Source: Thermoplasmatales archaeon
GTDB lineage: Archaea; Thermoplasmatota; Thermoplasmata; Thermoplasmatales; Thermoplasmataceae
NCBI GenBank assembly: GCA_016806715.1
Contig: CP060531.1
Coordinates: forward strand, 310,001-374,000
Reading direction: 5' to 3'
DNA: 64,000 bases
The position numbers and the translations under genes were made by a program. Position 1 is the stretch's first letter. The number at the start of each line of letters is the position of its first letter. Of the stretch, positions 56,576-59,670 are shown piece by piece. The notes under the pieces are model-generated. The model saw only the letters and a list, made by a program, of their open reading frames with translations, had not been told where the DNA came from and did not search any database.

Positions 56576-57601
56576 TCATTCCAGGCCTATGCTGTTGATG
56601 ATCCTTGAAGAACTTGCGTCTATCACCAGTGATATATCCTTGCCCTTATGGCTGAATTTTGCGAACCAGACAGGTACATGCAAAAGTTCCGGCTCAGAGA
56701 CGTCATCTTCAGTGGTAATTTTCTGTACCATATGATGCTGATCGTGTACTTTCTTGCTTTGGAGCTGGTCAACATAGGTCTTTGCCTCATACTTTGCAGA
56801 TTCTTCACTAACATCTCCATTCAGGACTTTTATGCCTTTTGGTATCTTTGAAACATCGAATATTACGCGGCTCTTAAGGTCGAATGAATAGTCCTTGGGC
56901 TGGTAGCCGAGCATGCCTTTCATCGCAACAATTGGATAATCATAGTTCTGATCGAGCGTATAGGCACGAAGATTTCCGTTACCTCTCCCCATTCCACCCA
57001 TCATCATCCCGCCCATCATTGCGCCTTCCATCATTCCGAATCCGCCGCCCCTGCCACGTCCGCCGCCCATTGCTCCTCCCATTAATCCCATGAGAAGAGC
57101 ACTTCCGGCAATAGTCCCGACTTCTGAGGCTGCACTAATGGCTGAATACTGTGTCCTTGCCGATACAGGTACAACCCAGTATGGAATATAGGCAAGGTTC
57201 ATTCCTTCATTTTTCGAATCCTCTTCAAGATGTTTTCTCAGAAGTCCCTTATCCAGATATTCTTTCAATATAGTTGTCAATGAGTCTGTATCAGCTATTT
57301 TCAACGTCAGCATGCTATGTTTACCGACGTTTCTCCAGCCATCTGAATTAAGAGTAATGCTCGCTCCGCAATATTCACAGGTTATGATCATCTCTCCAAG
57401 TTCCGGCTTAAGTGGTGCACCGCAACTCGGGCATTTCAGTGCCTGAATATCCGGAGAAGCTATAACTGGCCTGTCATTGTTCTTTGCTGTTGCACTCTGT
57501 GCTGCATTGCCATTACTGGTTGAAGATCCAACCTTGTTTCCACATTTTGGGCAAAATACCGCATCATCCGGTATCTGCGCACCACATTTATCACAAAACA
57601 T
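56576..57601 (-). CDS. Zinc-ribbon protein of the SPFH module (YdjG-like)
   Basis: 341 residues. The N-terminus holds two zinc-ribbon pairs (CDKCGA...CPKCGN and CPSCGA...CEYCGA), then a soluble domain, and a Gly/Met-rich stretch (GGRGRGGGFGMMEGAMMGGM) that may form a hairpin into the membrane, followed by a mixed C-terminal domain (IPYWVVPV earlier). The architecture resembles B. subtilis YdjG. It is the last gene of a three-gene operon, 11 bases after the SPFH gene. Its role may be to pair with the SPFH scaffold; inference. Confidence 0.7.
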   Translation of the reverse strand: MFCDKCGAQIPDDAVFCPKCGNKVGSSTSNGNAAQSATAKNNDRPVIASPDIQALKCPSCGAPLKPELGEMIITCEYCGASITLNSDGWRNVGKHSMLTLKIADTDSLTTILKEYLDKGLLRKHLEEDSKNEGMNLAYIPYWVVPVSARTQYSAISAASEVGTIAGSALLMGLMGGAMGGGRGRGGGFGMMEGAMMGGMMMGGMGRGNGNLRAYTLDQNYDYPIVAMKGMLGYQPKDYSFDLKSRVIFDVSKIPKGIKVLNGDVSEESAKYEAKTYVDQLQSKKVHDQHHMVQKITTEDDVSEPELLHVPVWFAKFSHKGKDISLVIDASSSRIINSIGLE

Positions 57602-57612
57602 TTTTCATCACT

Positions 57613-58779
57613 TCATAACGCTTTTCCACAATTCGGGCAAAACTTTGTACCAGCAGCGGACTCAAACCCGCAGTTCTGGCATTTCACTTTCTGGGCTTCA
57701 AGTTGAGCGCCACAGTTAGGGCAGAATTTTGTCCCGGCAGGAGATTCTGTTCCACACTTTGGACACTTTATAGACTCTGTTTTCTGCTGGTTCTGCAAGG
57801 GTGCTCCACAATTCGGGCAGAATGTTGCGGAAACTGGAACCATAGAACCACATTTTGGGCATGGCTTTGTCTGGCTTTGCTGCAGTCCTGAAGACATGCC
57901 GCCCATCATTTGCCCACCCATCGCATAACCCATACCTGCTCCGGCTCCCAGTCCAATTCCGATCCCGGCTCCAGCGCCTGCGACTCCGGTCGGGTTTTTT
58001 GCTGCATCTACCATGGCCTTTCCAGCCTGAAGCTGCAGATAGTTTACGCCAAGGACTGACATCTCGGATCTCTTGTCCACAGCTTTCTGCACTTCATCCG
58101 GGAGGTTTATGGTTAAGCCGGAGATCTTGTTTATTTCTACCCCGTATTGCTGGAACTGGTCCGGGGAACTAGCAAGAATAACCTGTTCCAAATTAAGGAG
58201 ATTTGCAGGAATATCAGTAACCTTTAACCCCTTATCCTTCATTTTTCCCAAAGCACTGTAGACGAGGATGATCATCTGTTCTTTCAGCCTTGACTCAACA
58301 TCATCGCTTGTCTCAAGGTTGAATGTACCTACAAACTGGTTTATGAAATTCTCGGGGCTGGAGATTTTCCACCTGTATTCACCGAAAACCTTCAGGCTCA
58401 CGACACCAAATGTCGGGTCAGTGAACTGGTACGGCTGAGTGCTGCCGAACTTTCCGTCCAGATAGCGCCTCTGTATGTAGTATACCTCTGCCTGCTGCTG
58501 CACACCCGCAAAGAACTTCAGCAGACCCTGAACAACCGGGGCATTAAAGTCCGTCAGAGCATACCTGTTCGGCTGATCGAAGTAAGTGAGCACCTTTCCG
58601 TCCCTGAAGAAGACAGCAGTTTCGTCTTCCCTCACAACTATATTATCATTTAGCCTGATGAGACGCGGAACTTTCCACATCACATTGCCTTCTTTATACT
58701 GAGTCTCCCACGCTATTGTGATAGATCCGGCAACGCTGCCACCTTTATCCGGAATATTTTTTGACTTCCTGCCAATCAT
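57613..58779 (-). CDS. SPFH-domain protein with C-terminal zinc ribbons (YdjI/virion-core-like)
   Basis: 388 residues. The N-terminal two-thirds is an SPFH (stomatin/prohibitin) domain of the YdjI class: EDETAVFFRDGKV, GEYRWKISSPENFI and YSALGKMKDKGLKV. A Gly-rich segment (GAGAGIGIGLGAGAGMGYAM) follows, then three zinc ribbons with CPKCGS...CPNCGA, CPKCGT...CPNCGA and CQNCGF...CPNCGK. SPFH proteins form membrane-associated rings. The gene's 5' end overlaps the upstream partner by 4 bases. Confidence 0.82.
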   Translation of the reverse strand: MIGRKSKNIPDKGGSVAGSITIAWETQYKEGNVMWKVPRLIRLNDNIVVREDETAVFFRDGKVLTYFDQPNRYALTDFNAPVVQGLLKFFAGVQQQAEVYYIQRRYLDGKFGSTQPYQFTDPTFGVVSLKVFGEYRWKISSPENFINQFVGTFNLETSDDVESRLKEQMIILVYSALGKMKDKGLKVTDIPANLLNLEQVILASSPDQFQQYGVEINKISGLTINLPDEVQKAVDKRSEMSVLGVNYLQLQAGKAMVDAAKNPTGVAGAGAGIGIGLGAGAGMGYAMGGQMMGGMSSGLQQSQTKPCPKCGSMVPVSATFCPNCGAPLQNQQKTESIKCPKCGTESPAGTKFCPNCGAQLEAQKVKCQNCGFESAAGTKFCPNCGKAL

Positions 58780-59339
58780 GACGTTTCACCCTTTTGCGCA
58801 ATGATTATTTTTTCAACGGTATCAATTCTTTTTCTCCAACTGTCACGTATAACAGCAATTAAACCTATTATGTTTGCTATTCCAGTGCTTAAGGCAGCCG
58901 TATCTCCAGAAGTAATTCCAGGCGTGCCGGCTGCATCATTTATCTTAGCAGAGGAGTCCACAAAACTAAGGTCATACTCATATAAGGCATTCAATTTGGA
59001 CTCATCAATTCTAATTGCCGGGGATATGCCTGTATAACCCTGAGCTGAGTGAAGAATCTCCCCGTCCAGTTGCTGGATCTTGGAGAGTGCCGAGCCAATG
59101 GGAGTGAGATTCTGGAAATCTCCATCGGATGCCATCTGGCTCCTTGCAGATACAAGTTTAGCCATCGCCATGTTTAAGTTATTGGAGACCTGCTTCCGAA
59201 GCATTTCATCAGCTACCCTCAGGTCATCCCCAATTCTATAGGCCCGGAATCCAGGAATAAGCAGCTGGATTTTCTTAAGCAATCCGCGGCTTTCTGTTAC
59301 TTCCTGCCTGATATCATCGTTTCCACTATTTGGCTGCAT
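58776..59339 (-). CDS. First gene of the SPFH module, helical protein of unknown function
   Basis: 187 residues. N-terminal QPNSGNDDIRQEVTES is acidic and soluble; a helical stretch rich in Ser/Ala (VSNNLNMAMAKLVSAR) follows; a hydrophobic segment TGIANIIGLIAVIRDSW near the end may be an amphipathic or membrane helix. I do not recognise a family. The start ATG 59339 follows a TATA-like AATTATTTAT (59369-59378), giving a very short leader; the frame before it is not protein-like. Overlaps the SPFH gene, so all three are one transcription unit. In Bacillus the equivalent first gene is PspA-type; no clear similarity here. Confidence 0.65.
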   Translation of the reverse strand: MQPNSGNDDIRQEVTESRGLLKKIQLLIPGFRAYRIGDDLRVADEMLRKQVSNNLNMAMAKLVSARSQMASDGDFQNLTPIGSALSKIQQLDGEILHSAQGYTGISPAIRIDESKLNALYEYDLSFVDSSAKINDAAGTPGITSGDTAALSTGIANIIGLIAVIRDSWRKRIDTVEKIIIAQKGETS

Positions 59340-59670
59340 CGGAACACTGAAATGCAATATTCTTTGAGCATAAATAATTATGTAAATTTCATAAACCACT
59401 GCAGTGCTGGTATATCAGTATACTGGAATTTTCCCAATCTCTTTTTCATCAGGCGTTTTCCTTTACTAAATTCTGGTGTGTTCATCAACCGAAAATTTTA
59501 GGCGGCTGAAATGAGGGTGGAACCGCTTCCCATTATAATGCTTCGATAAGCATCTTGAAACCCTGCAAGTATGGAAATTCCACCCGATGGCGGGCAGCAA
59601 ATAGTAGCATTCACAAATTCTTCCTGATTGCGACAAATCTTCTTCACGATTGAATGGTATTGAGGGCTAT
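59340..59670. other. Intergenic region, no gene recognised
   Basis: Contains the promoter of the SPFH operon at its left end (minus strand). Nothing else stands out. Confidence 0.35.

Follow-up and report, generated by a model that had tools for sequence, protein, structure and literature searches.

A Conserved Archaeal SPFH/Zinc-Ribbon Gene Module with a Predicted Helical Protein Encoded Where Bacillus Has PspA

Results

Organization of the Locus

The window analyzed here, a 64,000-nucleotide stretch of a Thermoplasmatales genome, carries three minus-strand ORFs at positions 56576-59339, designated genes A, B, and C. Gene A (59339-58776, with its ATG at 59339 and its stop at 58776) encodes a predicted helical protein of 187 amino acids. 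Gene B (58779-57613) encodes a protein of 388 amino acids, in which an SPFH (Band_7_1) domain is followed by a Gly-rich linker and three C-terminal zinc ribbons. The product of gene C (57601-56576; 341 amino acids) combines two zinc ribbons with an alpha/beta body that is split by a Gly/Met-rich hydrophobic segment. A and B share 4 bases (ATGA), and 11 bases separate B from C. A GTG at 59399 would lengthen the ORF of A, but the ATG at 59339 was taken as the start because the relatives support it. Inspection of the sequence upstream of A revealed an AT-rich, TATA-like stretch on the same strand (59360..59394) that may be the operon promoter, and an AT-rich stretch is found at a comparable place in loci L126 and L127. 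The operon is adjoined by a gene for a Ta1207 family protein (PF19020, 59671-60606), which is not a conserved neighbour at other loci.

Domains of B and C

B matched Band_7_1 (PF13421) with an E value of 1.8e-32 and 113.1 bits, against a gathering score of 24, and belongs to the SPFH/Band 7 superfamily. With its three Zn_Ribbon_1 stretches, it is the SPFH protein with three zinc ribbons described in an earlier sequence-only reading of this DNA. The same reading had noted a hydrophobic Met/Gly segment in C. The segment is there, at about residues 155-208, but it is not a clear transmembrane helix. The 19-residue Kyte-Doolittle mean peaks at 1.44 in this stretch, at 1.28 in the Gly segment of B, and at 1.66 in A, so that none of the three proteins has a clear transmembrane helix. 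The word membrane in the earlier description was an inference.

The zinc-ribbon cysteines 57/60/75/78 of C are invariant among its relatives. No PDB match was found for the predicted body of C. The matches of its ribbons, to zinc fingers of the NZF type or similar ones, were no more than short and weak, and many such fingers bind protein. These matches argue against the view that the module serves in envelope-stress signalling or regulation, with ribbons of C and B that would bind nucleic acid or sense zinc instead of forming a scaffold, as does the finding that no DNA-binding domain or regulator is evidently a recurrent linked gene. It has been suggested that the zinc ribbon of Bacillus YdjG binds DNA (PMC9239133), and zinc ribbons are numerous here, several being present in B and C and one being fused to the N-terminus of A in one Thermoplasmata clade. 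On balance we consider such a regulatory role quite unlikely. A role in anti-phage defence was also considered and was rejected, as PADLOC returned only weak zinc-ribbon matches.

Sequence and Predicted Fold Set Protein A Apart from PspA

No Pfam family was matched by A. Every one of the 76 aligned members matches the NCBIfam LIMLP_15305 family (NF047596; best E value 1.5e-17, all below 0.01), although the A of the window scores 26.9 bits, far under the family cut-off of 210. Judged by these profile scores, A is a relative and not a member of the LIMLP_15305 family, and hence would be part of a broader superfamily that is uncharacterised and has relatives in bacteria. The Leptospira family is of similar length to A, and its model also matches Bacteroides ihuae but none of the other 13 control genomes. 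A literature search on the Leptospira gene LIMLP_15305 returned its name in a table and nothing more.

The AlphaFold2 model of A, built from 76 sequences (pLDDT 83, pTM 0.79), predicts an N-terminal helix followed by a four-helix bundle. The helices span residues 8-27, 40-71, 75-100, 113-137, and 147-185, with lengths of 20-39 residues overall and 25-39 residues in the bundle. The residues that are invariant in A include L26, P29, G30, and G104 together with K22, K23, Y34, R35, D39, R41, D44, Y120, and D123, to which H97 and R171 can be added. So many invariant charged and aromatic residues suggest a binding site. Such a site would suit a zinc-dependent quality-control or proteolysis adaptor, where clients caught by the SPFH ring and the zinc ribbons would be passed on by A to a protease or chaperone and the membrane would only be the place where this happens. 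SPFH proteins have indeed been proposed to have chaperone-like assembly roles beside PspA (PMC11237479). Among the clustered genes, however, no protease, AAA ATPase, or chaperone evidently recurs beside the module, and we regard the adaptor as unlikely, while giving it some weight.

The position of A next to an SPFH zinc-ribbon gene is that of PspA in Bacillus (PMC8581546), and A is helical in the AlphaFold2 model. A could thus be a PspA/ESCRT-III protein that has diverged very far, in which case the operon would simply be an archaeal pspA-ydj operon. Several results argue against this. The long alpha1-alpha2 hairpin of the ESCRT-III/PspA fold is absent from the model, which has shorter helices in a bundle. 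Foldseek found no match to the model at E<=0.001 in the PDB or in viral models, and PspA, Vipp1, and ESCRT-III were all absent from the top 50. The profile of A gave eight weak helical-bundle matches in the PDB, with no PspA, Vipp1, or CHMP among them, and the 25 families that the 76 members match most do not include PspA_IM30 (PF04012). PspA_IM30 was not over its cut-off in any of the 61 genomes of the same order, the window genome included. It was over the cut-off in three of 293 genomes of the phylum, two of which carry A and PspA together, and PspA is absent from 78 of the 80 A-bearing genomes. The PF04012 model matched 9 of 14 control genomes. A divergent PspA is therefore already largely refuted and in our judgment very improbable. 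The sequence-only reading had placed an unrelated-looking protein at the PspA position and had called for a comparison of its predicted structure with the PspA/ESCRT-III fold; both the comparison and the absence of PspA from the genome agree with it, and no known unrelated fold was found for A either.

Comparison with the Bacillus Operon

The Bacillus subtilis pspA-ydjGHI operon resembles the module in its SPFH protein with a C-terminal zinc ribbon (YdjI), in its zinc-ribbon partner (YdjG, of which C is a candidate counterpart), in the helical protein encoded first, and in its compactness (PMC8581546, PMC11237479). B is likewise a Band_7_1 protein with a C-terminal zinc ribbon. The systems differ in their first gene, which is pspA in Bacillus and A here, the archaeal operon being without any PspA/IM30 family protein. 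They also differ in the TPM-domain membrane protein YdjH, which only the Bacillus operon has; no protein of the window matched this domain and none was a recurrent neighbour in the loci. In the archaeal module the SPFH gene is second and the zinc-ribbon gene third. The Bacillus operon is under sigma-W control, which does not exist in Archaea. The likeness to the Bacillus ydjFGHI set that had been proposed from the sequence thus holds for the SPFH/zinc-ribbon core, while YdjH has no counterpart.

Conservation of the Module

A and B were present in an identical set of 32 of the 61 genomes of the same order, no genome having only one of them (Fisher 4.6e-18, uncorrected for relatedness), and they were adjacent in all 30 loci examined. 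Together with the overlap and the short gap between the genes, this bears out the tight three-gene operon that was first described. In most of these loci C comes third; it is lost or replaced in families f5 and f6. About half of the genomes of the order are without the module. One of the genomes in which A and B are undetectable (G027) retains a C remnant with two in-frame stops (contig 34, 3187-3558), possibly through decay of the operon as a unit.

Among the 293 genomes of the phylum, A was found in 80, a strong Band_7_1 match in 80, and both in 75 (Fisher 4e-57, uncorrected for relatedness), which answers in the affirmative the question of co-occurrence raised by the sequence-only reading. 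In two of the five genomes with A only (G100 and G294), A is at or near a contig edge. In the other three (f28), it adjoins a protein with a C-terminal zinc ribbon that Pfam does not call SPFH. Five genomes of f8 have a strong SPFH match and no A.

When named genomes were scanned for A, 110 relatives came up and 80 of these were retained. They come from Thermoplasmatota, Nitrososphaeria (including Nitrosotalea), Methanomassiliicoccales, Methanocorpusculum, Methanoperedens, and ANME-2. At 76 of 78 archaeal loci, from Thermoplasmatota, Nitrososphaeria, and methanogens, the gene immediately downstream of A is B, and C-family proteins are near A-B in 52 loci of that set. Even for divergent A homologues the SPFH gene is still next in most cases. 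The other neighbours shuffle between loci, and the genes that flank the operon in the window (Ta1207, PdxS, and DUF92) recur at none of 80 other loci. The divergence of A is correlated with that of B (r=0.67, not reached in any of 2000 permutations), a value inflated by relatedness. A-B-C is a conserved module. A literature search, with most subscription journals outside its reach, did not find a paper on it.

The A and B sequences of Nitrososphaerota form one clade (99/96) inside the Thermoplasmatota rows. This suggests that A and B were transferred to Nitrososphaerota as a unit, which is only a lead since the sample was picked by similarity to the window. A mobile or phage origin of the module was rejected: A was on no plasmids or phages and not confirmed on any viral contig, and B was on no phages.

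The module varies among archaea. In Methanoperedens, ANME-2, and some Methanomassiliicoccales the order is A-B-C1-C2-C3, and in Methanocorpusculum the C-type genes are upstream of A. A second, divergent A-SPFH pair is present in two genomes of the same order (G043 and G052; loci L227 and L228), so the pair has been duplicated. At 21 of 95 loci (including L166, L170, L174, L181, L218, L219, and L229-L231) a protein of 108-150 amino acids with three to four predicted transmembrane segments is encoded directly upstream of A. No such gene is directly upstream of A in the window. Judged from sequence, this protein provides the best apparent link of the module to the membrane.

Related Loci in Bacteria

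SPFH genes followed by C homologues are found on bacterial plasmids of Paracoccus, Pseudorhodobacter, Vibrio, and Comamonas (HMM E values of 4e-19 to 8e-24), in loci without A. C, a candidate YdjG-like partner, was compared here with the zinc-ribbon genes that lie immediately behind SPFH genes in bacteria. The B-C pair therefore occurs in both domains, and the helical partner varies by lineage. On two Rhodobacterales plasmids (L208 and L214), genes for TelA, a DUF2927 protein, SPFH, and a C homologue lie in a row. The SPFH gene directly precedes the C homologue as in the archaeal module, but the upstream helical protein is TelA (annotated in L208, a similar ORF in L214). Homology of A with TelA was rejected (hhalign probability 2.8%). 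On a Novosphingobium plasmid (L207), SPFH is followed by two DUF4178 proteins, a hypothetical protein, DUF350, and a polyamine aminopropyltransferase, an order that recalls PspA-linked polyamine operons (PMC11237479).

The Meth_adaptin ESCRT systems of Methanobacteriales also contain an archaeal SPFH protein with a zinc ribbon, linked to membrane remodelling (PMC10936438). They differ from the module in that no recurrent Vps4 or ESCRT-III neighbour of A-B-C was seen in the loci examined.

Discussion

We propose that A-B-C is an archaeal SPFH/zinc-ribbon scaffold module with A as the helical partner where Bacillus has PspA, a proposal to which we give an even chance. We infer the complex, its membrane location, and its function by analogy. 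In Bacillus, YdjI is needed, with YdjG and YdjH, to bring PspA to the membrane (PMC8581546), and because of this analogy B is cast as the scaffold, C as the adaptor or anchor, and A as the effector. B would oligomerise through its SPFH domain and display clustered zinc ribbons. C would be its zinc-ribbon partner or adaptor, a pairing that bacteria share, and A would be a dedicated effector, a soluble helical bundle docking on B in the place of PspA. In methanogens and related lineages the four-TM protein whose gene lies just upstream of A would serve as the anchor, and in the lineage of the window the Gly/Met segment of C may do so. The likely job would be to survey or stabilise either the cytoplasmic membrane or complexes of membrane proteins. 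Against this proposal stand the lack of a clear transmembrane helix in A, B, and C, the replacement or loss of C in some lineages, the f8 genomes with SPFH and no A, the f28 genomes where A is next to a zinc-ribbon protein outside Pfam SPFH, and the absence of the module from about half of the order.

As a tentative extension, which we hold to be possible but somewhat doubtful, A may represent a family of effectors of membrane maintenance that has not been described before, replacing PspA in most module-carrying Thermoplasmatota and occurring also in other archaea. The SPFH-zinc-ribbon pair may then be a platform general to prokaryotes, on which the helical partners (PspA, TelA, and A) can be exchanged. 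If this is true, the platform, and not PspA, would be the constant part of the SPFH/zinc-ribbon system. Little is known of how Archaea maintain their membranes, and SPFH proteins belong to the small number of membrane organisers that all domains share. In acidophiles, ammonia oxidisers, and methanogens, the module offers a defined target of three genes.
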